From: Candidatus Aadella gelida | GTDB taxonomy: Bacteria > Omnitrophota > Gorgyraeia > Tantalellales > Tantalellaceae | NCBI GenBank assembly: GCA_030765205.1 | Contig: JAVCDB010000099.1 | Span: 1 to 48,022, forward strand | Direction: 5' to 3' | DNA length: 48,022 bases | Part shown: positions 377-29,382 of the stretch, piece by piece | Layout: each line of letters opens with the position of its first letter | Numbering within the stretch: position 1 is the first letter of the stretch | The notes under the pieces: generated by a model | The model's input: the letters and a program-made list of their open reading frames with translations, nothing else | Told to the model about the DNA's origin: nothing | The model's database searches: none | Position numbers and translations under genes: made by a program

Positions 377-814
377 ATTTTATTGCTCTTTTTGTATTCC
401 TATCCCGTAAAGTGAAAGTTACTTTTTATTATATTCACTTTTATCTCCTTTTATTTTCTTGTTTGATTAATATTCATATTTTTAATAATTTTATACAAAA
501 TTTTATACTGCTCTACTCTATTTTCCCATGAAACAGTAGTAGTGTCAAAAGTATTTAAACTGTCTTTTTGTTTGTTAACGCTAAGGGTAGTCCCCTGTTT
601 TTGAGAGAAAAAATTAGTTTTTGACCCATTAAACCGTCAAAAAAAACAATGCCCCCGCCTCCCGAACCATTAATAAAATCCGAAAAGCAGGGGCATCTAA
701 AAGAAGCGCAGGAAGGTTGCGGAAAAAACGCCTCTTTTGTATATTTCTAGATCTTTCGGTACAAGTTTTTCGTCCCTCATCCCTCGTCTTTCTTCCTTCT
801 AACTTCTACCCTCT
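377..814. other. Intergenic region between the small secreted ORF and the giant gene
   Basis: There is no credible gene here. It holds an 8-bp perfect AT-rich inverted repeat (409-416 with 434-441) just upstream of the small ORF, a rho-independent terminator for the giant gene (639-696), and a heptamer array that runs into the giant gene's stop codon (771-819). The remainder is AT-rich and featureless. Confidence 0.7.
639..696 (-). terminator. Rho-independent terminator of the giant gene
   Basis: Read on the minus strand, ATGCCCCTGC (696-687) pairs over ten positions, one of them G-U, with GCGGGGGCAT (658-649). The loop is about 28 nt. The stem is followed by a T-rich tail with eight consecutive Ts (646-639). 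It lies about 120 bp past the giant gene's stop codon. The long loop is the only weak point. Confidence 0.7.
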
Positions 815-819
815 CTATG
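771..819. repeat. Heptamer array at the stop codon of the giant gene
   Basis: On the plus strand, units of seven bases beginning with C (CGTCCCT, CATCCCT, CGTCTTT, CTTCCTT, CTAACTT, CTACCCT) run without a break. The next unit contains the TAG stop of the giant gene (815-817). The units are degenerate but keep the 7-bp phase. Confidence 0.75.
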
Positions 820-2068
820 CTCTTACAAGCACTTCGTTCACATAACGTTCATATGCCTCTATCTCTGCCTTGAAGTCTATTGCTTTGGTGTTCGGCATGA
901 ACATGTACAGGTTGCCCAGATTTCTCACGGTACCCAGGTTAAAACCTATGTTCTTAACGTTACCAGAGATTATCTCTATCATCACCATAAGGAGCTGTGA
1001 TGTCAGCCCTTCGCTTTCCATCCAGACATATATAGGCGCGTCTTCGCCTTGGAGCATCTTCATGACACTCGCGTCTTGAGACCTATAGTCTTTAGTGTCG
1101 CCAATAGCTATAGAGCTGTTAGGTGTATCGGATCCGAACGTATCCCTTACCGAATCCAAAGCACTCTGAAATGTCATATTCTCCTCAACCATCATGACCA
1201 CATTCTCCGAACTCAAGTATTCTCCTAGTCCCGTTATCTTGAGATACTGTTCCTTGTCCTGATCGGTAACAAAATTCTCACCGATCAACCTAACATGTAT
1301 AAACGCCGAGGCTTCTTCTTTGGTAAGACCCATCTTCCTTATATCATTCGCCAGGAACCTACCGTCGGCGACATTTCTAGCTGGAACGCTGACGATCTTG
1401 TGTTCTGTCTCACCAAATCCGCTTTTTATCGCTTCTTTTGCCTTCTTGCTGATCTCTGCGCCCCCAAGTATATCCCGACGCACATTATCTATACGCATTT
1501 CATATATGCTCTTACTAGCTATATCCAATGCCGCTATTTCAGGGAGCAGTCTGACATATATCTTCATTATGCGTTCAAACTCAGATATATCATTAATCGC
1601 TTTTATACTCTCCTCGGAAAGAAGCGCTATTTCGGGATTTGCCAGTTCCAGAATATCTCTTACCGCTTTCGTTTTGAGTTCCGCCAAAGTGTCCCTAAGA
1701 TCAAAAAGTTTCATCTGATTGTCCACGTCTATTATAGCGGCTACCGTCTTTTTACCGGCGGTCTTTGCGCTAAGTTCCTCTACCATCTCTTCCCTTGTTA
1801 CTCCCGAGAGAGAGATAACTTTAACGCCTGTCTCTTCTTCAAGTATCTTTATCGCCCCGGGCGTGAATATGTTCAGCATATCTTCCCTCATTCCTACAAC
1901 CACATCAATATCCTCTATAGTCCTGTCTTTAGAATCTTTTCTTTGTCTTATTGCATCCTCAAGCATTACTGTTATCTCCCCTAGATCCTCAGCTCCGCTC
2001 CGGCTTTTTTCCAGCCTGCTCAAAGCGGCCGGATCTAATTCGGCTCCGGAATGATCCACAACTATTAC
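815..2068 (-). other. C-terminal domain of the giant protein (residues about 9075-9491)
   Basis: A soluble alpha/beta-looking domain follows the last membrane segments. It contains DVVVGMRED, AAIIDVDNQ and SSIAIGDTKDY, and ends in a segment with phased Gly/Asn. I do not recognise the family. Because it follows a membrane hairpin, it may lie in the cytoplasm or the periplasm; the topology is unresolved. Confidence 0.5.
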
Positions 2069-5000
2069 CATATCTGCTTTACCTAGAAGTACAGCTCCCA
2101 AGCCTTTCAAAAAACTGAATATCGGAACTATATATCGCCCTATAGCTATCAGTACAAAGGTCCCAGTCACCATCAATCCAAAAAATACAGGGTCCTGTGC
2201 GGCAAAATCCATCACCTTTTGTGTCGCTCCTGTCATATACGCTATTATAACACCTATCGCGCCCGATGTTCTGAGAGTTGACGCGCTTCCCTTCAGTCCG
2301 GTAGCAGATGTCTTTTTCGGAGTTACATCTCGACGGACTAACCTTACGCTTTTTATCATTTTTATGAAGACTGCCGGTTTTGTACCCCATACTTTAGCTC
2401 CTACCGCATATATATCTCTAAAATTATTAAATTGATCAACTTGACGTCTGTTAGAAGAAGGATCAAATTTTATTACGCCTTTGCGGTCCGGTGACGAAAG
2501 GTAGGAATAAACATTTTTCCATTCACTGTTTTTGAAAAAAAGCTGTATCATATCACGTTTCCCGCTGAAGAGTTCTATCTCCAAGGCATAGTTTGTAAGG
2601 TCCACTCCTTTCGGATAACTTCTGCCACTTACCGATCCCTTTCTAAGATCAATAAAAATTTCATTTTCTTGCACTATAAAGTGTTTAGATGATAGCTTGA
2701 TCACATCCTCAAGTTCCTGTGAATACACAATATTCGTGATGAATTGCGGAACAGCGCGTTCCGGTAAAATGCTGACAACGAATAATGCAACAAACACTAG
2801 TAATCCTGCGAATATCCTTGATAAAAAATTCCTTCTCTCACTTGAAAACACCCGTCCGGAACCTTCCGGGCTTCCTATACCCATCATGGTCATAAGTATC
2901 CCAAACGTTCCCAAAGCGGACCATTTCAATGCAAGAAGAGGCGCTTCGGTGATATTTAAGGTCTTCTTTGCCGACGCATATTTCGCATTTAGTCCAGCAA
3001 GTACTTTTTCCGTAAGTCCCTGTTCTCGAGAACCTTCGGGATCGTTTTCTAATCTGTTTCCGAGTTCGTTAAGCGCATTTTCATTGAAATCCATATCCCG
3101 CACGGCATCATCCGTATTACCTTCGGCTAAATCTTTAGTAATATCATTGAAGTTTTCTTCGACTTCACCTATTAGACTCTCGGTAGAAAATTCCACAGGT
3201 GTCTTCGCTGTAAAATCTAGCGGGAGAGGACCGTCATCTCTCACTTTTTCCTGAGAAAGAATATCTTCCTCGGATCCCGCCCCTGCCGCAACCGGAGTTA
3301 TACTGATATTTTCGACATTCACACCGTCCGAGTTTCCTTCGAACTGTACTCCTACTGTTCTGACCTTTTTCGGATCAAATCCTGTATGTGTATCATATCC
3401 TTCTCCTCCCTGACCCGGGAGGACCTTTATAATATTGATGCCGGGGGTAAGTGTCATCACGGGACCCAGCTGCGTGGGATGATAATTCTTACCGCCATCA
3501 TATGACTGCATGACAGGCCTAACAGTAAGCGCTCCCGAAATAGGGACATTCTCTTCAGGTATGTTTATTTGAATCAAAAACCCTTTACCTTTCATAACAT
3601 CCGATTCATTTTCGTCATCGAGTCTCCATCCGAACACTTCACGAAGATCAAGTAGTACCGTCCCCGGTATGGCATCCCCAGCCAATTTCTCGCTACTGAT
3701 CTTCCATCCCGTTTCGTTTCCTTCTATACCACCAACCATACTGCGTGATCCGTCAAGAACGCGTGAGGTAAGAAGACGTGTCCATTCTTCTACGCGGTAT
3801 CTACCTTTATCCTTGAACTCGAAAAACGCTCCGTTCCTGGCTTCTTTTCCTATATATTCATCTTGGAAAATTTCCCATCGTTTTGTTCCTTCTTTTTCTC
3901 CAAACTCATCCAAAAGGAACTTAGAGTACATCTCCCGAGCCGTATCAAGTATCCTGCTGAGTCTCGCAGCTTCATAATTTTTACCTTTAGACTTAAGATC
4001 ATAAGAATAGTCCAGCATACCGTAGATCCATCCGCTGGCTCGTTTATTCCTGGCTATTGGCCTAACCATATCCGGTATCGCTTTTTCCGGTGTTTTCCCA
4101 TCCGTAATGTAAGCACTGACTGCGGGGCCCGCGACATAACTGCGCACAAGTTCTCTATTGAAGTTCTGAGCCTTATCTATCGCAGGAAGTGCTAGCATTC
4201 CTATCCATGTTACCCAGAAGAAAAATGTCGCTATTATAGCCTTGTTATATACCCAATCCTTCAATTTATCTCTTTTTTCCTGTCTGGTAAATTCCCTGCC
4301 CAAAGCTTTTTTTATCGCATCTTGACGTCCCCTCGTCCAATATCCTTCACTGACATATCCAGGGAAAAGGTTTCTTCCGGCATTGAAATACGCGGAAACT
4401 ATCATATGAGTATAATATATGAGCATAGTAGGCGATTTAAGACCATATTTAAGAGTATGGTACGGAAGTCTACCCACTGCCAGCATCGGTTTTTTGGATA
4501 TCCGTCTATAAATAGAATCAATACTCCATGTTCCGGCAAGTATTGAACCGAATGCCAGTATAGCTAAAATGCCCCATAACGGGAAGATGGAACCGGCCCA
4601 GAACGCCGCGCCGATAGCAACTGTCACAAAGCCTATAGCGCCGGCCTTCCAGTCTATTGTTATTTCACCTTTTATTTCACGCTCTATCTGCTCTACTTCC
4701 TGCATTATCTCTTCCAGGGCAAGTATTACGGCAATATCCAGATCCTCTTTTCCTTTGTCAATATTCTTGCTGACTGCACTCTCAAGCATCCCGTAGAATT
4801 TAAAATCTTTAATGACAACATTGCCCTGTTTGTCTTTCAAACTTGCCGAGATCACACGACCTTTTTTATTGGTTGTAACATCTACCATAGTTTTATCAGC
4901 TTTTAGAAAACGTTTATATTCATCAAGCACGTGTAATATCTTTTCATCGCTTTTAAAGTCATCTTTTTCAAGCTTGGGTATTATCGTCCTCTTTTCGCCC

Positions 5001-8000
5001 GTTACGGGATCCTTGTACTCGGTCTTCATTAAATGATCCAGACCTTCCATTACAGTGAACCCGTGTTTCATGACCCTTACTCGGAAAGCTTCACTCGTTG
5101 ATTCGTCATCTTTTGAAGCATATATCCAGACCACCATCATTGACATAACTGTCAGAATGAACGGAGGATAGAAAAATACCGCTATACCTGACATTGTTGT
5201 CGGGAGCCATCCTATCATTTCTTTTATTATGTATTCGACCGACAAGGCATATTCCTGTATCAAAAGCCCAATTCCGCCTAGTTTATATAGAGGAAAGAAT
5301 GTATAAGCTACTCTTGAAACAACGTAAAGATTAGTGATTATTATTGTTACCAATGTCGCCAAAGCCGCCAAAGTAGACGATGAAAGATGTGCCATATGCT
5401 GAAATATGATCACCCCGCGTATCCATCCGCGCAAACTTCTATCTCCCATCCCATCCATTGGGGATACATGCCACTGTTCATTAAGTTCCGTGCCCGAACG
5501 GGTCATAGTTTTAAACAGGACATAACCCAGTCCATAGAAGAGGAGTCCGCCTGCAAAGAATCCTAAAGGCGCTCCTATAAGAAGACCTGCCGCTATATTG
5601 AGCTTTGAGCCTACTAAGGCCCATCCCAGGCCCGCTCCAAGATATTGTCCCCAGAACATGAAGAAAACGGGTTTATAAGAAAGTATCGCCCAGAATGTCT
5701 GGAGCGTTATCCATCGTGACCTCTGAAGCCACCATCTGAATCCTAGAGGAGGAAGTTCGTCCTCAAGTACCTGTATATATTTACCTTCGAGCCTTATCGC
5801 TTTAAGTTTATAGAGAGCAAGCCTTGAACCCAGCTCCGCGTCTTCTATCTGATTGTATGAATCCCATACCCCGGACTGTCTGTATACGTTAAGATATTTT
5901 CTGAAAAGTTCGGATGGTTTGCCTATAGCTTCGACAGGTTTTCTGAGAAGTTTTATTCTTTCGATCCTTTTCTTGATGAACCCGAGTTTCTCTGTCTTAT
6001 AATACTGATCGGTTTCGTCCTGTGATATACGTTCCCTTAAAGGTCTCATCAGCTGGCCAAGATGTATCCTCGCATGTAAAGGCACTTCCTCAATCTCGCC
6101 GGTCTCTTTGTCTATTAATATCCTCACGCCGCTTAACATTTCCCACAAGAAACCATTACCCGTACCGCCAAGAAACAAAAATCCTGATTTTGTCTGGCCT
6201 ATCTGTATACTGTTATGCCACACCAAATAGTCAAGCCATGACCTGTGACTCCAATCCGTATCTTTTTTAATAGGCACCAGACGAAGTTCTGTCTGCATTA
6301 CGGTTGGTATATTCCTTATCCTGAATTCTGATCTAAGGAATGTATCCTCATCAGGATATACCTGTAGGAATGCCCATAGCATATATTTGGCTCTCGATGC
6401 TCCACTAGAACCTTCACTTATCCATTTTTCAGCATCCTTTTTCGATACTCTTTTTACCTCTTCAGGACCGACGCCTGCCTGTTTCGCAAGGCCCGCTACC
6501 GCGTCCCTGTATTCTTTTATTATTTTTTCGCCATCTTCATCTATAGATATTTTCCATCTTTTGCCTTCTGAATCCGCATTATTCTGTTCCTCAAGAGTAA
6601 GATCCCTTCCTTCCTGATATGTTTCCCTTGCGTCAAGATGACGTCTTACCGTATTCTCTCTGCTTTCCCAGACACAAAGTTTCATCCTAAAAAGAAGCGG
6701 CTGAAGCCGGTCTTCCTCGTCCACGAGTTCGACAAAATAAGGTACATCTTCACCCAATTTTTCATAAAATTTACTTATCTCATCTTTTACAGCCTTTTCG
6801 TTCTCTACGGTATTGAGATCCACTACCGGAGGTTTGGTTCTGCCCGTAACAGCATAGAAAAAATTCATTACAACGCTTTCTTCGGCATTAAGAGGCGGTT
6901 TCATCCTTATCTTCTGCTGATGCTTACCCAAGTTTATCCCGTGCTGAGGGCCCGCTACAACCCGTATACGATCCCTGTACTTGTATAGCCTTCCCGCCCA
7001 TGGTTTGTCGGGATCAGTTGTCGGTTCAATACCTCTGTCCTCACCCGCTTCGTTACCGTATATGGCGAGATTCATATCCCTAATACCGCCTTCGTCGACA
7101 TCGTCGGTTACCGGAAACACATCTACTCCTCCGGGATATTTTTCTATAGCGCTTTCAACTATTTCTACAAGTTTTTCTCCTGCTCCGCCTCCGAACGTTG
7201 TCTCCATAAGCGCAACACGCGGGAAAAGTTCGCTGCCGTATTCCTCGCGGAGATATTTTATGTCTTCAAGATCAAGTTTCTCCAGTATATCTTTATTACT
7301 GAACCTGTCCGTTCTGGTCATAAGCATAGCTGGATCCACTTTCCCGATGAACCTCGCATCACCTGATATAACTTCAATAAATTTATCCCTTTTCGCGGTC
7401 TTCTCCAGGAATACCATCTCGAGTACCGGATAGTTGAGGAGCATTGCATATGAAGGCCACTTGGACGGTGTTATGCCCCTTCTTTTTAAGTCCCTTTGAC
7501 GCCACCATCCGGAGATATCCCTGGAATCCATGTCCATCTCATGTATTATTCCGGAAAGATTTTCCTCATTTATGTCCGCCTCCATATATTTAGGGAGATC
7601 CTCATTATCCGTCTTATTCTTTATATCATTGAGAATTTCTATCAGCATATGACTCGGTACGCTTTTTTCCACATCCATAGGTGTTATACTTGCCGGTTTT
7701 CCGGTAAAACGCGCGGCAAATAACATGACCTTTTCAACCATAATATTTACCATATATGCTGATACCGACGCGAAAACTGTCGTGACGGCGAAGAACCAGA
7801 AAGTCATATCTTTTATTACCGGTATAATGCCCTGTACCTGCAGATACTCACTGCGGATCAGATAGCCCGCGCCGATAAGTAATGCCGATACTACACCTGC
7901 CTGGACAATATTAGTGCCATGCCGCTTTATTCCGTGCCAGTAACTGCTTCTTGTGACATCCGGTCCGCCGAAACCCTGCTGAAACCATGACATTTTGCTT

Positions 8001-23000: not shown

Positions 23001-26000
23001 CTGAGACTTAAAATACGCTGTAATGTTTTTACGCGTGATTGTATATTCCACTTGGTCACCATGGGTAAGCCTTCACCTGATGCGTCATACCTTAAAGACT
23101 TAAGCGTGGTTATAAGCGCTTCTTCGGTTCCGGGATTTTGATCCACTTTATAATTAGTAAAAGCTGTTTCTGCGTTATTCAACAGCTGATATATATTCAA
23201 TCCCTCCGGAGAAATAACAGACGGTATCTCTATCTCTTCTTCTCTATCCTCTCTTCCTATCTGTTCTTCCTTTTCTCTTACAACTGTTCTTTCCGAGGTA
23301 ATATCCCGCTCCAATCTCTCTTCCTCGGAAACTCCTTCTAATGTAACAGGCTGTTCCTGTTTCGTTTTCTCTATGAGTTCATGTATCATGGCGCCTAGCG
23401 TTATCGGACCAACTTTTCCGTCATCTTTTATGCCCTTATCTGTCTGGAACGCCCTAGTGGCAGCGCGGCTTAATTTCCCATAATCCTCATCCACTTCAAG
23501 ATCATACCCTAAACTCTTCAACGCACTCTGCCATTCTCCGGCTTCTGAGCTGTTATAATGGTTGGCAATAAGCAGTCCGCCATTGTTTATAAAAACATTA
23601 AGATCATGGATGTCTTCTATAGCAGGCTTATACTCGAGGTTTGCCTGGATAAATTTTAGAGCTTCTACATGAGTGGCAAATCCTTCAGGTATCTCCGTAA
23701 CGGGTACCGTTACTGTTTTCATTACCTTTGTTGCCTCAGTCTCCGCCAGTTCTTTCTCGGCCTGATCTGCGGCTAGCTGTTCCTTCTTAAGGTTCTCTGC
23801 GGCTATCTTGTCTTTCTCGGCCTCATCTGCGGCTAGCTGTTCCTTCTTAAGATTCTCTGCGGCTATCTTGTCTTTCTCGGCCTGATCTGCGGCTAGCTGT
23901 TCCTTAGCCTTTAAAGATTCATCTACTAACAATTCGTCCGTTATATCTTGCTCTGCTGACTGTTTTTTTGCCCATTTCTTTACCGCATCTGACTTCATAA
24001 AAGATGCCATTCGTTTCTCGATCTTGTCGAAAGCCTTTATAGCTGCGGCATCTTCCGCTGACAATTCTTGCCCATCAGCCTGTTTAGCGAGTATTTGAAT
24101 TAGCTGGTCAAGGGCATAAGCGTCCATGTAGTTTGTAACATTGAGTCCCCCTCCGTAGATGATCTCATTAAAATCACGTATTACCCTCTCTATTGGTGTA
24201 TTAACCGCCAGGTGCCGCTCATTACCTGGCCTGAAAGGTTTGAACGCATCAAGAAGGGCATCACGATATTGTTCGGGATCCGACTTGAACGCCGAGAGTA
24301 CATCCTTCGCACCTACAAAATCACTTATGAACTTGTTGCTGGCGCTAAGCGGAAAGGGTAAACTTATTCCTCCGGCAGACTGGTCTGCGAGTTGTGCCAC
24401 CCGTATTTGATCTCTTACGTCATCGGGCACTATAAAGTCGGGGATTATTTGAGTGTCAATATCCTGGACAGCTGTAAATATTCCACTGCCAACATCTATA
24501 TCTGCACCTATATCTGTTCCTATATTCTGATCAAGACCTCCTGTCCCAGGAGAAGCAATTGCCGTAGAAAAACTAGCACATATCATGGGCACTATCAGGA
24601 CGCCTACTATGCTAGCAACTACAACGCCGCACGTATATCTAAAGGCCGGTGACTTTCCTATATATGGCACTTTAGATAAAACCGATGTCAATGGTACGCT
24701 AAACTTGCTAAGTATATTTAAGATCTTGTCAAAAACAGATTCAGAAACAATATATGAATTTGAATTCGCTTCCGGAAAGATCATTTTAAACGCTTCCGAT
24801 AAATTCTTAAATTCTCCCATCTGACCGCTTTTCTCTAAGAAATATCTCGTTCTCGCTACAACATTTTTACCGGATTCTTTTATTTCGTTGAGTTCCTGCC
24901 AATGAGATTCGATCTCTAGTAAGGATTCTTCCGCGATCATATTTGCATACTGACCTATAAGAGCTTCCTTATCCTTGTTATTTTGATCAATAAGTTTCTT
25001 TTGATCACCAGACATCTCCCCTATTAGAGCTTCATTCTCAATAATTTTATTTAATTGTTTCCCAAGCCAGCTTTTATCTCTTTGCACAGTTTTGCTGACC
25101 GCCCAATGTATTTTTTCTATATCGGTAAGTTTTTCTTCTGTGGGATCGATACTATAACTGATTATTGCCAGCAAGTTATTTCCGATCTCCCGAATAGCTT
25201 GCCGCTTATCGTACGAGGTTAAATGTTGGCTCACAAATTCATCATGTCTAGTTTGAAATGCTCTTTCCCTGTCCCATCTCAAACCTAAACTATCTTCTCC
25301 GTTTATCCATTCCTGGTCTTTTAACTTAGAAATATTTTCTTCCGTGGGATCTTCAACATATTCCCATACTGTTTCCAAAACCTCTTTATAACCTTTTTTG
25401 TCCTCACTATATATTATCTTTACCCTCTCAACGGCCTGGCGTATCTTTTCTTTTGAAACATTAGACAGGTCATCCGATCCTATAACATTCTCTACAATAT
25501 CTTTACCTTCAGAACTTCCTTCTCTAATCTTATAAAGATATTCGGCTGCTTGGGCATTTTCCTCATCACCTATCAAGAAGTTTTGTATAAGTTTGTTTAA
25601 GGTTTCCTGTTCCCGCTCATCCAGAGCGTCAAAGGGGAGCATCTCTTTCTCTATTTTCTTTCCTGTTATACTTTCCAATAGAATCCCGTTTAAGATCATG
25701 GGCTGATTCGATACTGCATACTTATAGTAAAAATCATCTATGTGATTTCTTGCGTCAGATCGTTCCGCAGGTGTCAGTTCATTAAACCCTTTGATCAAAT
25801 CAACGATATACAAGATCTGGCCCTTCAGACCACCATCGGGAAAAAATTCTGCGATCATATCAACCGAATCTTCTTCTGAGGGGACAATCTTCTCCAAAAG
25901 GCTTATAAGCTTCTCACTGTTTTCTCCGCTTATCCCGTCACTACTATCCGTAATGGTCTGAGCATGCATTTCCGAGGCTGTTGAAAAGATTTCCTCTTCA

Positions 26001-29000
26001 GTAACCCGAATTGTAGTATCATTTGGTTTGAAACCGGATATTTGATGTGCCCTTATTCTTCTTTTTATTTTTCCAAGACCATAAAGAAGTACTTCCGGTT
26101 TAATTGTGAGCTCATAGGCTCTTAATAAATCTATCTTGTCCTTAAGAAGTTCGGCATCCATTGTTAGCAGTTTATTACCGTAATATTTAGGATTAACAAA
26201 TTTCCGGATAAATTTTACATCCATCCCGGCTTTTTTAAGAGCCAGTATCCTTCGAAGGTTATTTTGATATCCTATTACATCGTTTTCGGAGAGTTTTAGA
26301 AGGGATTCTTGAATATCTTCCGATATGCTTTCGTCTTTAATTGTTTCTGTCAAAAGTCGCTCAAGTTGGGTTGTACGGTTTGGTATTATTTTTTCCTTTA
26401 AGAAACTTTTGACCCTCTCTATCAAAGGCGGTGCTTTATTTGAGATCAGTGAAAATACGGCCTTTCTCATTATAAAATATGTGCCTATAGCGGCAAAACC
26501 GGAAAGAACCGGAATCATGAACGCGTATCCGGCTGGAAGGGCCAGGGCCAATAATGTGCCCATACCTATGGTTGCGATACCCGCCAGAATTAAGACCTCG
26601 GCATTACCATCTTCCTTCTTCAATACATCTGTGGGTTTAGTTATAGCAGGTTCTTTCTCTCCGCCCTCTACCCTTTCTTCTTCTGCCATTTTCACGGTAG
26701 GTTCAGTAGGCACCACATCCGCATCAACGACTTTCTCGGGACCGGATGTTAGCTTTTGATCTTCCCGCACACCGCTAAATACGGGCGTTCCCGGCTCGAC
26801 TTCATACGCCCCTTCATAATTCACCCGTTCACCGGTCATCATCTCTATCCCGAAAGACATAAATTCTGCGGCTGAAACTATAATATCCAGCTGTTTCATA
26901 ACTTCGGGACTTTCTTTCCAATTTTTAGGCATTCTGTATCCGAGAGTCCTTAAGGTCCTTACCACTTCTTCCTGATCTATCTCTCGACCGGCTTCATAGA
27001 TCTTTTCCGCGATTCTTTCTCTAAGCGCTTTGTCTTCTGCTATAGCTTTTATTTTGTCGAGCCCCTCTTCCCGGCTAACTCTCTCCCCTAATTCCTTGGC
27101 AATGGTCGAAAGTTCATCTTTAAGCGATTCGGCCTTCTTAACTTCTTGCTTAAGCTCCGTCAGCACCGTCCTAAACTCGCCTTCTTCGCCTCTCCTGGCC
27201 AAAAACCTGGTTCTTTCTTCTTTGGAAGCGGGGTTAAAATCATAATATACCGCGCCCGAAGTGTCTTTCTTGCGAACTATACTTATGAAAACGCCGCCTT
27301 CGGCATCTTGTGTCATATCTTCAATAACGGCGCTTCCGTTATTTACTTTTCTGACATTTATTTTTTCAAGATATGACGAGAACTCTTCAGGAGCAGGAGG
27401 AGCAAAATCCATCGCAATACGATGTTCTTCCGATAAATTTTCATATGCCTCTTTATACCTGGAAGCCCATTCTCTTTTGATCTTTTCCACGTCGCGTCCG
27501 TCGATCATAGCTTCGCCCAAAGCGTGAAATACCATAGATTTTATGCCTGCAAGGTCACCTTTATAATCATACAAATATGCGGCAACCGCCAGTTTATACC
27601 TGCCGCTTTCTAGAAGCTTCTCATAAGGCTTCTTTTTATTGGTAAGCACCGCTATGTAAGGTCTTTCTTTCCCGTCCTGGTATTTCGGAATTATGACCAG
27701 GTAAGAAAGCCCCTGTTCTTTCATGATGCCGGTGAGTCCTTCGGTATGATAACCCCCCGTTATAAGGGCGGCTGTCTTTTTCCCTTCCCGTCTCATCTTC
27801 ATTACGGTATTTTCTAGTATGGCGTTATCTCTCGCTTTCGCGTCATAGTAGAACTGTAGCGCCCCGTCTATACCGTCTTCTATCTCGCCCAGATCATACC
27901 CGCCTGTTATTTCCACTCCGTATTTCTTACAATTTTCTTTAATGAATTTCGCGTATTCTTCAGCCGAGAAACTCTTTTTACTCTTCATCAGCTGTTCGCT
28001 TTCGGAGTTATTCAGCTCCATAGCATAAAGCTGTTTTAACAAAGTGGAAAGCTGTATCATTTCAAAAAGTTCGCGTTCTGCGGGCTCTTCATAAAGTTTT
28101 TCCCTGATAGCCCCTTCTAAAGCATCTATCTCATTGTAAAGCCCCATAAGTTCTACGGATTCGTATATGCTTACATATTTGGTAAAAAGTATCATGTTCC
28201 CATAAGCATCGGCAGAAATACCTTCGCTCTTGGCAAGATCAACTAGATAATTATGATAATCAGCTTGTGATATTTTGTTCTGTTTGAACGCGAGGGATTG
28301 CAAGACCAAAACTTCCAGTACGCCTTTTTCTTTGTCCCGGCTAAGCTCATCTATAAGCTGCCCTCTTTCTGTATTGGCCTTCTTAAAATCTATCTCTTTC
28401 TCGAGTTCCATCGATTTTATTAGCTTGGATATTTCGGGATAAGAGGCGATATCTATATTGTTCTTTTCGGCCAGATCTTTTATTGACGCCCAATAACCGT
28501 CAAAACTTAGCTTCTTTTCTCTGTGATCGCTTGATACATCATTGAACTTTTTAAGGTCTTTATTCCAGCTCTTCTCGGCTAGCGCGTCAAACTGCCCCAG
28601 AAGAGAGATTATATTTCCGGTTTTCCCGGCACGTTCGATAGCCAGATGTTTAAAACTTTCAATATTTTCTCTGTAAAGCTTCTCATCTTCTATCCCGTAA
28701 AGACTGATATTTTTCGCATCCGTAGTTATGGCGAAAAATTCCCCGGCGCTCATGCGCCCTTCTTTCATAAGAAAAGAAGCCGTATCCTTACGTATACTTT
28801 CGTCCGGAAATGTACTTAAAAGAGACGTGTCTATATACCCTGAAGCGCCTTCAAGTGCGATGAATTCAAGGTCATAATCCGTAACCAGAGTCTCTAGAAG
28901 ACCTGCTATCGAATACTGCGCAGACAAGGATGAATGAGCGTCCTGTATGTTAAAAATGACCTCGTCTCCGCCGTTCAGAGCGATTTCCTGCATCTTACCC

Positions 29001-29290
29001 AGATCATAGGGGACTTTATATTTGTTTGGATATAAGCTTTGCTGCTGGGCGAACTCAACCGGTTTGGCCTGTGCCCATACGGGTTTTCCGACCTGGGCCC
29101 AACCGGCCTGTTGATCGAAAAAGATTACTGAAAGAAGAAGGCTTACAATGCGTATAAACTGCCTGTTTTTCCTCTTCCAATACATGATATTATACTGTGA
29201 AAGACCCTGGTCATGGGCCTCAGAACCCTCATTACGGAGACTCTCTTTATAATAAGGGGGTTTATAGTTTCCTTCTCGCAAATATGTCAT
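815..29290 (-). CDS. Giant multidomain membrane protein with glycosyltransferase, glycoside hydrolase and TolC-like domains (9,491 aa)
   Basis: One uninterrupted frame of 9,491 codons. ATG 29290 is chosen because AGGAAGG sits 5 nt upstream; ATG 29185, just before the signal peptide, lacks such a site. Domains in approximate residue order: signal peptide 36-66; possible TraB/ChaN-like domain 100-560; two hydrophobic segments 894-941; helical region; hydrophobic segment 1553-1580; charged 20-residue repeats 1796-1847; peptidoglycan-binding-like motifs near 1905-1975 and 2055-2125; two OEP/TolC-like regions 2512-3075 and 3290-3705; beta-sandwich 4285-4462; clan-A glycoside hydrolase-like barrel 4495-4797; beta-rich YD-like region 4850-6180; membrane segment near 6440; a 63-residue tandem duplication 6555-6680; membrane segments near 6810-6870 and 7110-7185; family-2 glycosyltransferase 7370-8060; beta-sandwiches 8510-8670 and 8865-8990; membrane segments 9012-9075; unrecognised C-terminal domain. 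Proteins this long are known from Omnitrophota. A role in building, trimming and exporting a surface glycan is inferred from the domain mix and the pump genes upstream. The gene has its own promoter and terminator. Confidence 0.9.
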   Translation of the reverse strand: MTYLREGNYKPPYYKESLRNEGSEAHDQGLSQYNIMYWKRKNRQFIRIVSLLLSVIFFDQQAGWAQVGKPVWAQAKPVEFAQQQSLYPNKYKVPYDLGKMQEIALNGGDEVIFNIQDAHSSLSAQYSIAGLLETLVTDYDLEFIALEGASGYIDTSLLSTFPDESIRKDTASFLMKEGRMSAGEFFAITTDAKNISLYGIEDEKLYRENIESFKHLAIERAGKTGNIISLLGQFDALAEKSWNKDLKKFNDVSSDHREKKLSFDGYWASIKDLAEKNNIDIASYPEISKLIKSMELEKEIDFKKANTERGQLIDELSRDKEKGVLEVLVLQSLAFKQNKISQADYHNYLVDLAKSEGISADAYGNMILFTKYVSIYESVELMGLYNEIDALEGAIREKLYEEPAERELFEMIQLSTLLKQLYAMELNNSESEQLMKSKKSFSAEEYAKFIKENCKKYGVEITGGYDLGEIEDGIDGALQFYYDAKARDNAILENTVMKMRREGKKTAALITGGYHTEGLTGIMKEQGLSYLVIIPKYQDGKERPYIAVLTNKKKPYEKLLESGRYKLAVAAYLYDYKGDLAGIKSMVFHALGEAMIDGRDVEKIKREWASRYKEAYENLSEEHRIAMDFAPPAPEEFSSYLEKINVRKVNNGSAVIEDMTQDAEGGVFISIVRKKDTSGAVYYDFNPASKEERTRFLARRGEEGEFRTVLTELKQEVKKAESLKDELSTIAKELGERVSREEGLDKIKAIAEDKALRERIAEKIYEAGREIDQEEVVRTLRTLGYRMPKNWKESPEVMKQLDIIVSAAEFMSFGIEMMTGERVNYEGAYEVEPGTPVFSGVREDQKLTSGPEKVVDADVVPTEPTVKMAEEERVEGGEKEPAITKPTDVLKKEDGNAEVLILAGIATIGMGTLLALALPAGYAFMIPVLSGFAAIGTYFIMRKAVFSLISNKAPPLIERVKSFLKEKIIPNRTTQLERLLTETIKDESISEDIQESLLKLSENDVIGYQNNLRRILALKKAGMDVKFIRKFVNPKYYGNKLLTMDAELLKDKIDLLRAYELTIKPEVLLYGLGKIKRRIRAHQISGFKPNDTTIRVTEEEIFSTASEMHAQTITDSSDGISGENSEKLISLLEKIVPSEEDSVDMIAEFFPDGGLKGQILYIVDLIKGFNELTPAERSDARNHIDDFYYKYAVSNQPMILNGILLESITGKKIEKEMLPFDALDEREQETLNKLIQNFLIGDEENAQAAEYLYKIREGSSEGKDIVENVIGSDDLSNVSKEKIRQAVERVKIIYSEDKKGYKEVLETVWEYVEDPTEENISKLKDQEWINGEDSLGLRWDRERAFQTRHDEFVSQHLTSYDKRQAIREIGNNLLAIISYSIDPTEEKLTDIEKIHWAVSKTVQRDKSWLGKQLNKIIENEALIGEMSGDQKKLIDQNNKDKEALIGQYANMIAEESLLEIESHWQELNEIKESGKNVVARTRYFLEKSGQMGEFKNLSEAFKMIFPEANSNSYIVSESVFDKILNILSKFSVPLTSVLSKVPYIGKSPAFRYTCGVVVASIVGVLIVPMICASFSTAIASPGTGGLDQNIGTDIGADIDVGSGIFTAVQDIDTQIIPDFIVPDDVRDQIRVAQLADQSAGGISLPFPLSASNKFISDFVGAKDVLSAFKSDPEQYRDALLDAFKPFRPGNERHLAVNTPIERVIRDFNEIIYGGGLNVTNYMDAYALDQLIQILAKQADGQELSAEDAAAIKAFDKIEKRMASFMKSDAVKKWAKKQSAEQDITDELLVDESLKAKEQLAADQAEKDKIAAENLKKEQLAADEAEKDKIAAENLKKEQLAADQAEKELAETEATKVMKTVTVPVTEIPEGFATHVEALKFIQANLEYKPAIEDIHDLNVFINNGGLLIANHYNSSEAGEWQSALKSLGYDLEVDEDYGKLSRAATRAFQTDKGIKDDGKVGPITLGAMIHELIEKTKQEQPVTLEGVSEEERLERDITSERTVVREKEEQIGREDREEEIEIPSVISPEGLNIYQLLNNAETAFTNYKVDQNPGTEEALITTLKSLRYDASGEGLPMVTKWNIQSRVKTLQRILSLRDDGKIGKISAAALSKALKRGNPEVQEALHNLYKIIVSFASHYRAEMTPVEKVVTRDLFEERAQSENKEELREALDEDDVRLIKETIIFDKERVSTPPTKKEEPLVKETITEADIKKDIVLAESPEKIEITVEPSGEKLERPAESTVTYIEPEEVVSPEGAKRIEDVLTLPRFVMDANGEIIEADVEKYRLKNYADEITDRNGEPKHIINFAQTDNGKVWKVTQPIALGVKHEKYRFLFWSGISRDEVLIRDIEDIPMNSVLVSGDRKVSVEDIYAQGPGAEQRVREALDKADTFVVGEQDDKREYKLLRPYGVLYRAGSNGEVKEVKYSEGTPEELPQKNVTYFTEDPSGKNRVQLADIKADPVRGSYPRKAIGSDGISYGFFGDVIGVEQDNGKIIKIYRIGDVLPRGAMTSTEGIIRAALSSLDARVKDMEDRAKFAEGESVRKNYLDPIKASIGAFFSIEEADISFGSSIDFIFFGTDNKSFEAADRHAALEYLKKNIENKDFMKNLVYRVILRLNDLYNAEEHENRIKNELKSAEVYYRVIEKEYNAKKRDAAELLKARNETEKVKTRLMNARQNKVKIRAEIEKLIGAQQGIEIVGFKNISFELINSVLEGKGIDPGDFWRDYYGPIKRLEIGISNEKEAKQLAESKIGVKLGMRIGFSLTNTSLGIGPIIRISKGPDVSNELYDITREIIRSEEISGRTDNEDLMRGLLRLKDYYGEMRDKIKPLIITLEKAVKRGELALQMGNFYTLATVLEELRQTEKMLADVNSMYREVDLKIKELAKEGYLTKISAGNNLNIRGINPEFYAEENANARTRQSVQGGALYNAQKTQEYWKASEKFAEEKASEGFGWFNPWKGHKEKIKLLIQVRGEAARFMHGRENAELLEKTAIARLAYMLAGEESARALEEERRIWEERKQLMISSEGKEVFDAEFGKANLRRIKAETERDVAALRLRRLLGYESAEDAELGASGDVTPEVIRAYLASEFMGGMDPRMRLWTLEKQREEYIVLMQLVEDMGTKKLGKVLISLGIIDENGYYTSRMMVGEGFPFLKDKEKMRKYIESRLKNIEKAVQQENDDLASLGSQGKGQVELAERSVMSNQVNVAEAKRNYKKIVSTPMTRPEKIREAVTRLRQAEKDLIESKKDLIAANILEDKTSKISGTEQEQSMEADSTVIPQERIRARSEARVEQKYLKDLDNAVLDFRANIPPRFTAFISPSVNTPPGIVKVNPNIGKLRKTVGPNKGIMSAGVTWNIYNIYDSRLNRMADLTDQQKMTLSDRQAREDYHDLAVITSDIRLIESKIDVMKKVSDTFRQSKEIEKIRIEAGMRERDETGEHINAAELAIKKLEYELKDKKDELAQLLGITSGTRETSEDNWVIGITDIAKSTTEFYTFSSIVEYFRKTDGGAEKVREFASIIPSFYSGDIAHRDPEIEFFHQQLVKDLINDDLAKKERWNPEIDVSPSSSFITDDGRYSSVTLAAVFHLWDFGRSKAKQEVNKAKKAVTSLQIEKAQRDHVRRLEQLGESVEMGYSRVKGFYERVIASMEFAEDARGRYESATSDYDYWTYAKAVLDARDAKIGYLEAVNEYIKDVDEFKLQSELLWRATSELTEETVPASVVEEVSKKKGWIENLRDYLHKKAQRPKAMVSTPVPVYEKIDINALDGTIRNNIIRFLKAIDAMDNSGSIVSQKYFTKDEWVALWTSYFSRKDTSGRYLFNNVSAEKHLNRFIGLIEKNSLLERFEGKDIPDWLGSYFTPWPGILMITKYNIDDEESGIMPDIFAKIGYVNFLTEFVAYNEKTGRGDNFIIPEATNADNEYFERGEIVPLEVRIEEDIAMFERISGAKKDDGQDAARWEKKVRDLFERWEANVSVDIASADKEKIRAILSDYYGRDVVISVSSSRDNALFQAIYAYMMQQGLTFKDMEKIFREIKAIKPLTDQVYDHITPEDIAMYPEFGILDKIDEMIMQAEKGGRTSQALQTSAMRDQVNEELIKISRLFKTLYVYNSTMEYVAAKEMYLGKIKREMKGLMTEDEIVSLLGYNYQVIKGIIRDMTPNDRIEAITSVMERLENPGVRKIISKELGIDLDKETTGFFDGDRITKALIHSTIETEWEVLLTPDILSDDTYDTGQVPMETGEGSVSELREKVRRSIQASLPDMPAGEEPVKSIEVSTQQEVFTNAAEAAMTRKSDFVGNAVRIVSEFWVGPLIAGEKGDFDFAQNDNWKPEKDDIKVSKQDDGLHLKINLPKRDAKSFAWLDLPDIKDISDKNIVIKIKMKNPRRGVDAVHVQVVAKDTSWGYSDSAWELGELSSGEKTIIVKPHHWKSHGGNINKVRQLGLKFALGSSATCGFDGEVIITSITVQADKGVGAVATEKRELYAKVPGKTDVVKGDEVQAGSSGYYNRYGIFGNAQGLPQVDKYVTPGINTLRVMPAFSGKQKDNGLHVTSTGSRIEQKAVSDAKKYLSNIREKGVNNLYVTLLDFHMANSNSNDGVEFPEALKNPERRKELAKTLAGFVKTVEKDATKKGVKVCWDIMNEPVGAVALSPGERQAFVNEVIDEILRTGTKGISVTVGTRSYDEFANWFYLLDRYKDRILSGDIEIVMTTHSYEEITESYPSVGQFNVPDWARDKVKFVVTELDPTVKTASGGKREKDQKEIKRDIKILTDKGYKGVLYWTDEQYPYSPKTHIKAVLEIFKDLVSFMEKKGSVSQAVRNTLKSAVKATVPGGDAVQEIVGTAVEALDQQVTGRKDKEIKKKPAQRKSVVTTGLMSAPTKEKRLGWKDARKVIPQILSEDIDISAVRSVKRLLKYEFGVEKGVSYILLDGNRRQIAAYSQEYGSDNVYVTIGGSDKSDARYTGQLRLSKENIPYVTGYMSEQYEYKVLEKKDVTLFLPGVKEGVKFPRGSSLTVVRKFSKEKPTTPGEIVSSYFYTPEKRRVSIVEFPLLPFESGLRTIQQVQVKYHDDEGTVIRYLGKTEKENDGSVVRVRGLEDTGQFSEPLMIEKLKVSENKDGETEVEKIKLDIFTRDVTFEEITQNSKDGGLNFSITLTREETESHGFIVLLERTDDKKYIKKQVFIAEPGKSLSDYTKEKGAMTLNQFADRLSRRGVRATEIETFLYSTVKDQLGRKTEEWARLNYGNLATGEHTLKDIKTTDVSEKYPGLTKYVVPKEVIEKGKDKNDRVFDRRALVGERAWGENIEKIVFEDLVRSYYKPGETSEDERPYFESVKQDFVDVTDGKAKIGVGINDNGEPIFETVTEERAFFHVRTIEKGYRDGAVREIGRIDTYMDRTGKMLLKTVLLYDYDRIGIDSKTKIVMETYRQAFNNQRTEDIMTKEVKEYEREGGGYTAGEMKERSFFSYRMGRFIFLGSEKDIVTEKRRYDPETGVLKDVEGHKSVAIAENPDGTLTYNERTTYKNGMVIEKKILKNSFGVTITVESSGVYKGINFIPEKFELETLTSGIKTDDEGRVIAEIDKDTNSIVAYVGQKKVRITDVPESAKWGHKVEWIPGMDKPVTESYGVYDVNGKPWYQHIREKVVGDEDAYLTRTVIYDNLKNLVTEKTYDHNGKQVFEQISHITRYRDPIKGDFYRIAEEKNLMTNYVTRYWYDEARYAVDKDTGKLPIRSEIRYLLRKQAKDGSTVYEEGEVSDVAVFVYDYGIEERAIIDMTGIEPKLRDIKDTKALLKTLAERGERLVVYRTFKPAEREFETEQWEVALGIKDGQIFIDWENGTLKIIRQTNNNLPEGWYLTVPLEGEKGGYSAENIFLGKKGYERYGLSNRRVTEFYEMFEGTADINPETGMIIGVDEDVLFEFRKTQNTGYKAYKNAFLYDALDGSQKIILPGKGEEGYGQGMFYFQKKVKVDHKNTGIVVGKFRLKTRDGEEMSRAWERLIGYTIPGTAQLDFGKHPLAGIGELENLYYTGRTGNDEQVYLFNVSVADGNIGGDIYANPFSAEGIDLTKGWKFKYHPEGAVSGSKELRQSDEARLVFNQIGILKGLLPQEFEKDIINLQATELMHWSKKELTADDSGTKIDLPDGRVITFTEKDEGIVLVSMFNEDNTPHKRPYMLEMGTNSGARELVMGALRTLNSVREKAGLKTDTMFNENAETDILNTIYTMARFNGITSPAKLAILLRDASRMRTSLSSFINGEKITPSVVSGILYWTVKLTLIEDEDTGAIPLTSAEDFKRFNKNLRGCENLGLESVRNVLNIENPSLIDHFNLTSEEKSQLIGVLVYWASYNEKGFDFGGFYKKFMEVTEYNDEVQEYLRVFEKDYDQLTKEERIKIYIERVASFAQHMLRNGYSGAEIRHVIKGQTEILKGTSYTEVEEMVKRGIWWDKFIGFGAMASAALAAVMAVFGGIGIWVRRNYRRVASPGIKPRKEIFPDESGRIAEKKDVLGKKAEKAESDKKPIDLGILGSIIKQSKIMGGAEWEASRRISPARYKFVGIINIGKIIDKVKKDRDSRLEKIFKETWDQSKDLQAIFTEGTSKKISAEDIRKKIGKYKGKKSEKEADSIISLLEKNIKEKGLESGFREIWDRSKDMKAIFPDGSRKNIVVRDIYKRIEKYKNGIAGKETNDIIASLERSTGDKDFETVLINILNGLKDVDSAKDTPGTDTVTSANLIGALKSIGDRLGTNLTSIVDIKTNQDVKDVKGKPEKKELGFDHFVEYSTNRYYKAILQGLGENFSTPDKEGILATKYAPRRYPLSSKNIGSPSRPVSEFGSLVLLVGTILGLASLVAAYSNPIFATPSVFITSAILIFGGIFSIREYLFETILNFRFIRKARRGVTDKMQIDVIDELIGNIEKIKASLQEIEQKNPEFSREQWAQIMKMPVAAPFAEPKLFQPKDVIDINMYDYIEYSIDWLKKLRSDPEEFVLYARGHFPWNDPQFYSPTLYVHGRNFVQAQDKKGFINLVPGEIEQDGSIKINGTENTYKKAPVKDGKGKRTYNGPAEWGSSIHAIPSNNIGKYLGALQYRVRRVQEKVYEGKMTTDEAIAWETEERRYRSSKMSWFQQGFGGPDVTRSSYWHGIKRHGTNIVQAGVVSALLIGAGYLIRSEYLQVQGIIPVIKDMTFWFFAVTTVFASVSAYMVNIMVEKVMLFAARFTGKPASITPMDVEKSVPSHMLIEILNDIKNKTDNEDLPKYMEADINEENLSGIIHEMDMDSRDISGWWRQRDLKRRGITPSKWPSYAMLLNYPVLEMVFLEKTAKRDKFIEVISGDARFIGKVDPAMLMTRTDRFSNKDILEKLDLEDIKYLREEYGSELFPRVALMETTFGGGAGEKLVEIVESAIEKYPGGVDVFPVTDDVDEGGIRDMNLAIYGNEAGEDRGIEPTTDPDKPWAGRLYKYRDRIRVVAGPQHGINLGKHQQKIRMKPPLNAEESVVMNFFYAVTGRTKPPVVDLNTVENEKAVKDEISKFYEKLGEDVPYFVELVDEEDRLQPLLFRMKLCVWESRENTVRRHLDARETYQEGRDLTLEEQNNADSEGKRWKISIDEDGEKIIKEYRDAVAGLAKQAGVGPEEVKRVSKKDAEKWISEGSSGASRAKYMLWAFLQVYPDEDTFLRSEFRIRNIPTVMQTELRLVPIKKDTDWSHRSWLDYLVWHNSIQIGQTKSGFLFLGGTGNGFLWEMLSGVRILIDKETGEIEEVPLHARIHLGQLMRPLRERISQDETDQYYKTEKLGFIKKRIERIKLLRKPVEAIGKPSELFRKYLNVYRQSGVWDSYNQIEDAELGSRLALYKLKAIRLEGKYIQVLEDELPPLGFRWWLQRSRWITLQTFWAILSYKPVFFMFWGQYLGAGLGWALVGSKLNIAAGLLIGAPLGFFAGGLLFYGLGYVLFKTMTRSGTELNEQWHVSPMDGMGDRSLRGWIRGVIIFQHMAHLSSSTLAALATLVTIIITNLYVVSRVAYTFFPLYKLGGIGLLIQEYALSVEYIIKEMIGWLPTTMSGIAVFFYPPFILTVMSMMVVWIYASKDDESTSEAFRVRVMKHGFTVMEGLDHLMKTEYKDPVTGEKRTIIPKLEKDDFKSDEKILHVLDEYKRFLKADKTMVDVTTNKKGRVISASLKDKQGNVVIKDFKFYGMLESAVSKNIDKGKEDLDIAVILALEEIMQEVEQIEREIKGEITIDWKAGAIGFVTVAIGAAFWAGSIFPLWGILAILAFGSILAGTWSIDSIYRRISKKPMLAVGRLPYHTLKYGLKSPTMLIYYTHMIVSAYFNAGRNLFPGYVSEGYWTRGRQDAIKKALGREFTRQEKRDKLKDWVYNKAIIATFFFWVTWIGMLALPAIDKAQNFNRELVRSYVAGPAVSAYITDGKTPEKAIPDMVRPIARNKRASGWIYGMLDYSYDLKSKGKNYEAARLSRILDTAREMYSKFLLDEFGEKEGTKRWEIFQDEYIGKEARNGAFFEFKDKGRYRVEEWTRLLTSRVLDGSRSMVGGIEGNETGWKISSEKLAGDAIPGTVLLDLREVFGWRLDDENESDVMKGKGFLIQINIPEENVPISGALTVRPVMQSYDGGKNYHPTQLGPVMTLTPGINIIKVLPGQGGEGYDTHTGFDPKKVRTVGVQFEGNSDGVNVENISITPVAAGAGSEEDILSQEKVRDDGPLPLDFTAKTPVEFSTESLIGEVEENFNDITKDLAEGNTDDAVRDMDFNENALNELGNRLENDPEGSREQGLTEKVLAGLNAKYASAKKTLNITEAPLLALKWSALGTFGILMTMMGIGSPEGSGRVFSSERRNFLSRIFAGLLVFVALFVVSILPERAVPQFITNIVYSQELEDVIKLSSKHFIVQENEIFIDLRKGSVSGRSYPKGVDLTNYALEIELFSGKRDMIQLFFKNSEWKNVYSYLSSPDRKGVIKFDPSSNRRQVDQFNNFRDIYAVGAKVWGTKPAVFIKMIKSVRLVRRDVTPKKTSATGLKGSASTLRTSGAIGVIIAYMTGATQKVMDFAAQDPVFFGLMVTGTFVLIAIGRYIVPIFSFLKGLGAVLLGKADMVIVVDHSGAELDPAALSRLEKSRSGAEDLGEITVMLEDAIRQRKDSKDRTIEDIDVVVGMREDMLNIFTPGAIKILEEETGVKVISLSGVTREEMVEELSAKTAGKKTVAAIIDVDNQMKLFDLRDTLAELKTKAVRDILELANPEIALLSEESIKAINDISEFERIMKIYVRLLPEIAALDIASKSIYEMRIDNVRRDILGGAEISKKAKEAIKSGFGETEHKIVSVPARNVADGRFLANDIRKMGLTKEEASAFIHVRLIGENFVTDQDKEQYLKITGLGEYLSSENVVMMVEENMTFQSALDSVRDTFGSDTPNSSIAIGDTKDYRSQDASVMKMLQGEDAPIYVWMESEGLTSQLLMVMIEIISGNVKNIGFNLGTVRNLGNLYMFMPNTKAIDFKAEIEAYERYVNEVLVRA
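2321..2698 (-). other. Third beta-sandwich (CBM-like) domain of the giant protein
   Basis: Residues about 8865-8990 have the strand pattern of carbohydrate-binding-like jelly rolls. An early strand reads IFIDLRKGSV, a middle strand reads YALEIELFSG, and the closing strands are IYAVGAKVWG and IKSVRLVRR. The pattern resembles the two earlier sandwich domains of the same protein. Carbohydrate binding itself is not shown. Confidence 0.4.
3281..3763 (-). other. Second beta-sandwich (CBM-like) domain of the giant protein
   Basis: Residues about 8510-8670 follow the glycosyltransferase membrane part. Strands FLIQINIPEEN, INIIKVLPGQGG and VRTVGVQFEGN, then VENISITPV, give the usual closing pattern of small carbohydrate-binding sandwiches (Val-x-x-Gly-x-x-Phe, then Ile-x-x-Ile-x-Val). 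Confidence 0.45.
5111..7183 (-). other. Membrane family-2 glycosyltransferase domain of the giant protein
   Basis: Residues about 7370-8060. The known GT2 processive-synthase series is visible in order: VYPDEDTF (DED at 7647-7649, the position of the usual YDAED block), a Q-x-x-L strand (MQTELRL), LGGTGNGF (usually LGGTSNHF), GVWDSYNQIEDAELG (usually GWD-x-[FY]-N-x-TEDADLG; Glu7816-Asp7817), then QRSRW at 7856-7860, matching the Q-(Q/R)-x-R-W acceptor motif of cellulose-synthase-like enzymes. Several membrane segments follow, as in the family. About 105 residues are inserted between LGGTGNGF and GVWD, where relatives have only a few. The N-terminal nucleotide-binding part is strongly diverged and its first catalytic Asp is not obvious. 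The product sugar cannot be told from sequence. Confidence 0.75.
9249..9626 (-). repeat. Tandem duplication of 63 codons inside the giant gene
   Basis: Two adjacent segments align over their length: one with ETWDQSKDLQAIF and KIGKYKGK, the next with EIWDRSKDMKAIF and RIEKYKNG. The period is about 189 bp. The copies have diverged in DNA as well as in protein, so the duplication is old. Confidence 0.75.
10750..14740 (-). other. Long beta-rich, YD-repeat-like region of the giant protein
   Basis: Residues about 4850-6180 consist mostly of short strands and turns with recurring Tyr-Asp and Asp-Gly turns (for example RRYDPETGVL, VIYDNLKNLV, TYDHNGKQVF, VYDVNGKPWY). These recall Rhs/YD shells, but the spacing is irregular and no Rhs core motif is seen. 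The function is unknown; a surface scaffold is one possibility. Confidence 0.4.
14895..15810 (-). other. Clan-A glycoside hydrolase-like TIM barrel of the giant protein
   Basis: Residues about 4495-4797. The domain begins with YGIFGNAQG and INTLRVMPAF, as in GH5-like barrels. WDIMNEP carries the predicted acid/base Glu4634 in the classical N-E-P motif. FVVTELDPT carries the predicted nucleophile Glu4734, 100 residues later, which is a normal spacing for the clan. VLYWTDEQY fits the last strand with its Trp. A beta-sandwich precedes it directly, as in many secreted glycanases. Both catalytic glutamates are present, so it may be active. The substrate is unknown. Confidence 0.7.
15905..16420 (-). 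other. First beta-sandwich (CBM-like) domain of the giant protein
   Basis: Residues about 4285-4462 lie immediately before the glycoside hydrolase barrel. Strands such as NIVIKIKMKNP, HVQVVAKDT and VRQLGLKFALG, ending in VIITSITVQA, match the pattern of carbohydrate-binding-like sandwiches. The order sandwich-then-barrel supports a glycan-binding role for it. Confidence 0.5.
18176..19423 (-). other. Second TolC-like (OEP) region of the giant protein
   Basis: Residues about 3290-3705 hold two long helical hairpins, each preceded by an amphipathic strand: MSAGVTWNIYNIYDSR, and VTLAAVFHLWDFGRSKAK. The second resembles the family pattern V-x-L-x-x-x-x-L-F-D-x-G-R. A long helix ends in YWTYAKAVLDARDAKIGY, like the L-D-V-L-x-A-x-x-x-L turn of OEP proteins. 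Whether it forms a barrel within such a chain is unknown. Confidence 0.55.
20066..21757 (-). other. First TolC-like (OEP) region of the giant protein
   Basis: Residues about 2512-3075 form long charged helices with a strand pair near MRIGFSLTNTSLGIG and a hairpin ending RGELALQMGNFYTLATV, the usual place of the OEP turn (Y-x-x-G-x-x-x-x-L-x-V-L). A second hairpin ends in LRRLLGYES, like the L-x-x-L-x-G that closes OEP repeats. The match is weaker than in region two. Confidence 0.45.
22916..23578 (-). other. Two peptidoglycan-binding-like motifs of the giant protein
   Basis: Residues 1905-1975 read LKSLGYDLEV, then ATRAFQTDKGI and DDGKVGPIT, which is the PG_binding_1 signature (LGY, AFQ, DG-x-GP-x-T). 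Residues 2055-2125 are a weaker copy with LKSLRYD, VKTLQRIL and DDGKIGKIS. Members of this family hold enzymes on the cell wall, so this part of the chain is expected to be periplasmic. Confidence 0.6.
23751..23906 (-). repeat. 60-bp tandem repeat within the giant gene
   Basis: Two complete 60-bp units (23751-23810, 23811-23870) and a 36-bp partial third (23871-23906) differ at only two positions. They encode a 20-residue Lys/Glu/Ala helix unit containing KDKIAAENLKKEQLAADQ. The near identity shows recent expansion, and the copy number may vary between strains or be collapsed in an assembly. Confidence 0.9.
27611..28993 (-). other. N-terminal extracytoplasmic domain of the giant protein, possibly TraB/ChaN-like
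   Basis: Residues about 100-560 follow the signal peptide. Three spots stand out: FNIQDAHSS with His119, FIALEGASG, and ALITGGYHTEGL with His515 (GGYHTEGL at 512-519). The arrangement of an early His, an EG pair and a late G-x-x-H-x-x-G-L recalls the TraB/ChaN/Tiki superfamily, but the sequence is remote and the assignment tentative. Long helices fill the middle. Confidence 0.35.
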
Positions 29291-29295
29291 AACAA

Positions 29296-29302
29296 CCTTC
29301 CT
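29296..29302 (-). promoter_or_regulatory. Ribosome binding site of the giant gene
   Basis: AGGAAGG on the minus strand, 5 nt before ATG 29290. It decides the start in favour of this codon over the in-frame ATG at 29185. Confidence 0.75.
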
Positions 29303-29354: not shown

Positions 29355-29382
29355 AGTATAGCATAAAGAGTATAGGTAACAA
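29355..29382 (-). promoter_or_regulatory. Sigma70-like promoter of the giant gene
   Basis: On the minus strand, TTGTTA (29382-29377), a 16-bp spacer and TATACT (29360-29355) are followed by about 65 nt of leader to the ATG. The surroundings are AT-rich. This would let the giant gene be transcribed apart from the pump operon. Confidence 0.55.

Follow-up and report, generated by a model that had tools for sequence, protein, structure and literature searches.

A single gene of 28.5 kb encodes a protein of 9,491 residues, in which a likely sugar-polymer synthase of the GT2 type and a GH5-like hydrolase lie between two end modules common to many giant genes. The gene occupies positions 815..29290 on the minus strand of the window, which is the whole analysed stretch of 48,022 nucleotides from Candidatus Aadella gelida (draft genome of 1.59 Mb, about 92% complete). 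Omnitrophota giant ORFs have been published (PMC10066038; PMC11573180; PMC12057145), and predation, adhesion or coats were proposed as their roles. Giant ORFs above 20 kb with multiple transmembrane segments are present in 20 of 23 Omnitrophia genomes, and the giant of V. archaeovorus LiM has 39,678 residues (PMC10066038). Thus, the size of the present gene, a single open frame within the published class of >20 kb, is unsurprising in itself. The novelty lies in the anatomy, not in the length. In the published account, the Omnitrophota giants show poor conservation and few recognised domains, and their function is left as a question (PMC10066038). The protein shares with them the phylum, the size class, the transmembrane helices and the scarcity of domains recognised by Pfam. 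Many of them were reported as poorly conserved, whereas a probable TIKI-type N-module and a C-module are shared here, and a GT2-type synthase recurs with a GH5-like hydrolase. A limited literature search turned up no account of the TIKI-type leader, of the C-module or of the pairing of synthase and hydrolase. Overlap with the preprint of West-Roberts et al. 2023 (cited in PMC12057145) is possible. An earlier sequence-only reading had named the product a surface-glycan-like fusion. This name is loose, and the shared end modules, which comprise the N-terminal 550 and the C-terminal 370 residues, had been missed.

The frame begins with ATG and has no internal stop in 9,491 codons. At the base composition of the window, the chance of such a run is about 10^-197, and the codon-position GC is fairly even from end to end. 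A Shine-Dalgarno sequence, AGGAAGG (29296..29302, minus strand), is located 5 nt 5' of the ATG. About 120 nt 3' of the stop codon, there is an intrinsic terminator-like hairpin, with a stem of 20 pairs and a T run after it (649..696, minus strand). The gene had been credited with its own Shine-Dalgarno sequence, terminator and promoter. The first is read directly from the DNA, and a terminator-like hairpin is present. As for the promoter, an extended -10 site is present (TTGTTA-16-TATACT; 29355..29382, minus strand), yet the frequency of the motif is not above chance (one found against 1.5 expected), and a promoter belonging to the gene is plausible.

Complete relatives were found in the genomes G018, G017 and G016, which are independent assemblies from other genera of the same family as the source genome. 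The N-module, the synthase match and the C-module are located on one frame in the giants of G018 (10,585 aa), G017:C3 (10,554 aa) and G016 (10,442 aa). The complete frame of G017:C32 (10,539 aa) likewise has the N-module first, the synthase match inside and the C-module last. The identities between the same-family relatives and the window giant are 44-50% for the N-module, 28-39% for the synthase and about 30% for the C-module. Comparison with other Omnitrophota giant genes had been suggested as a check, and both ends and the synthase match are indeed shared. The frame might instead result from misassembly or from reading through several genes, as the homologous locus of Ca. Omnitrophus magneticus SKK-01, the nearest homologue, is divided into three overlapping frames. 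However, SKK-01 is a draft assembly. One of its frame breaks lies within the GT catalytic domain and the homology runs on across the break, so that the likely cause is either a frameshift error or decay of the copy. The even codon-position composition and the complete frames with the same ends in independent assemblies also argue against an artefact, which is hardly credible. The uninterrupted frame of the earlier reading is thus retained.

The residues from about 40 to 66 (RIVSLLLSVIFF..QQAGWAQ; 29093..29173, minus strand) are read as a signal peptide or signal anchor, in agreement with the signal peptide reported earlier. A hydrophobic leader is also present in the other N-module loci examined. 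The N-module itself corresponds to residues 38-590 (27521..29179, minus strand) and was recognised by motifs and an AlphaFold2 model; no usable match was obtained by Pfam or PDB sequence search. A match to troponin C (E 0.004) was discarded as a short helical stretch. The four residues Asp117, His119, Glu147 and His515, which form a quartet of D-x-H, E and GG[YF]H, do not vary in any of the 40 sequences compared. The spacing between His and Glu is 28 residues, equal to that in EreC (H50/E78; PMC7979712), BcR135 (H85/E113) and RRSP (H3902/E3930; PMC6254334), and the acid two residues ahead of the first His matches Glu3900 of RRSP. The model has a pLDDT of 80, and the top PDB matches by Foldseek include BcR135, EreC and HopBA1, with weak E-values of 0.1-0.2 and low TM-scores. 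Because the motifs and the fold ranking agree, we place the N-module in the TIKI/Ere superfamily, with a confidence that is good but short of complete. The features shared with this superfamily (EreC, BcR135, RRSP, HopBA1, ChaN) are the 28-residue His-Glu spacing, the acid two residues before the first His and the second His in a GxxH motif; some of its members are also among the top fold matches, at the weak scores given above. On the other hand, the N-module has a large helical insertion, has no Pfam match and stands at the head of giant proteins that are predicted to be exported, although standalone forms of about 530-550 aa exist too.

The N-module was found in all 19 genomes of the order and in 145 of the 285 Omnitrophota genomes sampled, some of which carry candidate copies by the dozen. 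At each of the loci examined, no more than about 80 residues separate the start of the match from the in-frame stop before it, and a hydrophobic leader comes first. The N-module frames reach 35,113 aa among the matches listed, with the frame start seen in locus L126. Secreted-looking proteins of about 528-550 aa, which consist of the N-module alone, were observed in the loci L137, L138, L144 and L145.

The membrane GT2-type synthase is located at residues ~7120-8100 (4991..7933, minus strand). The processive GT2 motif set (D, DxD-like, (T/I)ED and QxxRW) is present and conserved. The motifs are placed in the order DD (7396-7397), KPxxN (7464-7468), DxxD (7524/7527), GGTGN (7708-7712), ED (7816-7817) and QRSRW (7856-7860), and ED, QxxRW and GGTGN are invariant across the aligned modules of the relatives. 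The AlphaFold2 model (pLDDT 75, pTM 0.76) shows a GT-A fold with membrane helices. According to Foldseek, the best matches of the model are BcsA (4p00), SpsA (probability 1.00), hyaluronan synthase, CesA and chitin synthase. Glycosyltransferases account for 48 of the 50 matches listed, with E-values of 0.06 or worse. Neither the window synthase nor nine aligned relatives gave a direct match to a curated GT2 family in Pfam, and the direct PDB sequence search did not recognise a glycosyltransferase. PF13632 was detected weakly (E 2e-5 to 2e-4) on the giants of G007 and G005, on the same stretches that are matched by the window synthase. Comparison with free-standing GT2 enzymes by hhalign gave a weak match (E 0.009, 4%) in the correct register. 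Judging from the motifs and the model, the region is likely a GT2-type sugar-polymer synthase, and the membrane glycosyltransferase noted earlier is confirmed at this level.

The module shares with the processive GT2 synthases (BcsA, hyaluronan synthase, chitin synthase) the modelled GT-A fold, the DD, DxxD, ED and QxxRW motifs, and the membrane helices around the catalytic domain. It differs from them in lying beyond the reach of Pfam and PDB sequence searches, in large insertions, and in being embedded in a chain of 9,491 residues. Neither a PilZ domain nor a known exopolysaccharide partner was found for the giant. In the genomes searched, the synthase module occurs mostly within frames of thousands of residues. 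In a record labelled Planctomycetota (L168:2759-15808), it is located in a 4,350-aa frame with neither the N-module nor the C-module; either the label is correct, or sequences of different origin were binned together.

A CBM-like beta-sandwich and a GH5-like (clan GH-A) hydrolase were assigned to residues 4345-4800 (14891..16258, minus strand) by PF00150 and by comparison. The Pfam cellulase profile covers residues 4515-4709 (E 7.4e-6; 26.1 bits against a cut-off of 23.5). The acid/base Glu4634, the nucleophile Glu4734, an H-x-Y motif and a Trp are kept in five relatives, and so is the preceding CBM-like sandwich. The profile score and the two catalytic Glu residues are both marks of GH5 and clan GH-A, and the glycoside hydrolase of the earlier reading is thus supported with its catalytic residues intact. 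Several beta-sandwich domains had also been claimed. The CBM-like one has comparative support and the others do not; the three beta-sandwich-like segments showed no similarity to one another. The hydrolase and the synthase are located on one frame in G000, G007:C59, G059:C95, G135:C8 and G160:C76, which represent five genera. In the G007 giant, the order of OEP, GH, GT and C-module is the same as that in the window giant. The region matching the hydrolase is absent from the SKK-01 alignment, and Pfam does not find a hydrolase in the giants of G018, G017:C32 and G010, which keep the synthase. Thus, the hydrolase looks like a variable part of the giants.

Among the remaining exported-type parts, one PG_binding_1 domain (residues 1918-1968; 23387..23539, minus strand; PF01471, E 2.3e-11) bears out the wall-binding-like motifs of the earlier reading. 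The OEP profile is above the cut-off for two TolC/OEP-type units. Unit 1 corresponds to residues 2480-2870 (20681..21853, minus strand; PF02321, E 3.7e-7; hhalign 73.9%, E 2.8e-5), and unit 2 corresponds to residues 3360-3760 (18011..19213, minus strand; PF02321, E 9.7e-8; hhalign 73.7%, E 2.9e-5). The TolC-like channels claimed earlier therefore stand as two units and not as a full channel on one chain. A single-chain TolC trimer was considered and rejected, as the middle segment 2850-3370 is not OEP-like (1%). Since just two of the three segments resemble OEP, at least two chains would have to combine to form a complete TolC channel. BLAST gave no self-similarity that would point to internal duplication, whether in the OEP region or in the beta-rich middle. 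OEP units are present in the giants of G010, G007 and G014. A single-protein search with the OEP region in the class gave a marginal match in G001 and nothing further. The TolC units are undetected in several relatives that retain the synthase, as is the hydrolase, and both thus seem to be optional additions and not constant parts of the giants. A beta-rich region (residues 4960-6410; 10061..14413, minus strand) follows the hydrolase and is found in other giants too.

The C-module (residues 9122-9491; 818..1927, minus strand) is present in 18 of the 19 genomes and, in those complete giants that were looked at, runs up to the stop codon. No known family was matched by Pfam or PDB sequence search. 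PPDK_N is located between the synthase and the C-module, immediately ahead of the latter, in the giants of G010, G018, G017, G016 and G001, and HPr is also located there in the giants of G010 and G018 (L024:6177-20000, L028:2-4795). Neither was detected by Pfam in the window giant. PPDK_N and HPr are cytosolic kinds of domain, which fits a cytosolic C-terminal part of the giants.

For the working of the protein, we propose a model to which about even credence is given. The protein would be one envelope-spanning polypeptide of the Omnitrophota giant-protein family. The signal sequence would export the chain, and the first 550 residues would be a hydrolase of TIKI/erythromycin-esterase type outside the inner membrane. 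The PG-binding domain, the TolC-type units, the CBM/GH5-like hydrolase and the beta-rich stretch would also be located outside. The chain would then return to the inner membrane, where it would form a processive GT2-type synthase with its catalytic face in the cytosol, and the conserved module would come last. A polysaccharide made at the inner membrane would be handed outward along the same chain, edited or released by the hydrolase, and used to build or remodel a cell coat or an attachment structure. A positive-inside reading can put the PG-binding, OEP and GH parts outside and the GT inside. We inferred this topology from hydropathy and charge, and an odd number of crossings at 895-943 is an assumption.

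The sequence-only reading had presented the protein as a single-chain machine that makes, trims and exports a polymer. Its list of parts is largely right. Because the synthase and the hydrolase recur together on one frame in five giants from five genera, a protein that makes and trims a polymer is a reasonable hypothesis. The full machine on a single chain is plausible, but its trimming and export parts vary between relatives, and the single-chain TolC trimer is unsupported. A wider proposal is more tentative, and we regard it as possible but rather unlikely as a whole. It holds that a full line of polysaccharide synthesis, trimming and export is placed on one polypeptide, built on a giant family with a TIKI-type leader, often a common C-module, and a middle swapped between tandem-array copies.

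Alternatively, the giant may serve predation or symbiosis, as a weapon on the cell surface or as a means of attachment. The PG-binding, GH5-like and TIKI-type domains would then be directed at a second cell, and the membrane part would mostly hold the protein in place. This is the published interpretation of the Omnitrophota giants (PMC10066038; PMC12057145), and in V. archaeovorus, attachment of the cells went with a 3-fold rise in the peptides of a giant ORF (PMC10066038). The PG-binding domain and the GH5-like domain with intact catalytic residues would also suit such a role. However, the motifs and the fold of the GT2 module are conserved across the giants, which would be needless for a mere anchor. 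PG_binding_1 is the sole wall-directed domain found, and no peptidoglycan hydrolase or adhesin family was above the cut-off in Pfam and NCBIfam. We therefore consider the weapon or attachment role doubtful.

Genes for two RND (AcrB-type) pumps (29895..33131, PF00873, E 3.4e-210; 33384..36551, PF00873, E 1.3e-243), an HlyD/CusB membrane-fusion protein (36742..38037, PF16576, E 1.9e-27) and an OEP (TolC) protein with TPR families (38090..44470, 2,126 aa; PF02321, E 1.8e-26) are located directly upstream, all on the minus strand. The giant might be an outsized partner of this efflux operon, whose two pumps and membrane-fusion protein would be served by the TolC units, with the rest accessory. However, the operon has an OEP protein of its own, and a terminator-like hairpin (9-pair stem, then a T run; 29733..29754, minus strand) is located in the gap between the operon and the giant. 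The genes next to the relatives in G018 and G016 are other giants or large N-module genes, not RND genes. A role as an RND partner is thus quite improbable. At the head of the operon, a ROK-family protein with a TrmB/HTH-like N-terminus was observed (window 44877-45992).

In the Bcs, Alg, Pel and Pga systems, an inner-membrane synthase, a glycoside hydrolase and an outer-membrane duct are present as functional classes. By analogy with such synthase-dependent exopolysaccharide systems (PMC9734138), the giant has the same functional classes on one polypeptide, and these may act jointly. It differs in that the systems have barrels of the AlgE/BcsC type, whereas the duct parts of the giant are of the TolC type, and no regulator was recognised. 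Should the synthase prove active, a single chain would extend from the cytosol through the inner membrane and the wall into the outer membrane. If true, this would bear on the export of very large bacterial proteins and on why the parts are kept on one chain. The common leader with its invariant catalytic-type residues, seen in roughly half of the genomes sampled, the shared C-module and the recurring synthase-hydrolase core provide a way to find, classify and test Omnitrophota giants. The shared leader domain offers a common feature and a plausible chemistry for giants of mysterious function.

Tandem arrangement of the giant genes was also observed. At G018:C17:4000-111673, three complete giant genes of 11,228, 10,585 and 12,923 aa are arranged back to back on one strand, together with the start of a fourth, and an N-module heads each giant.
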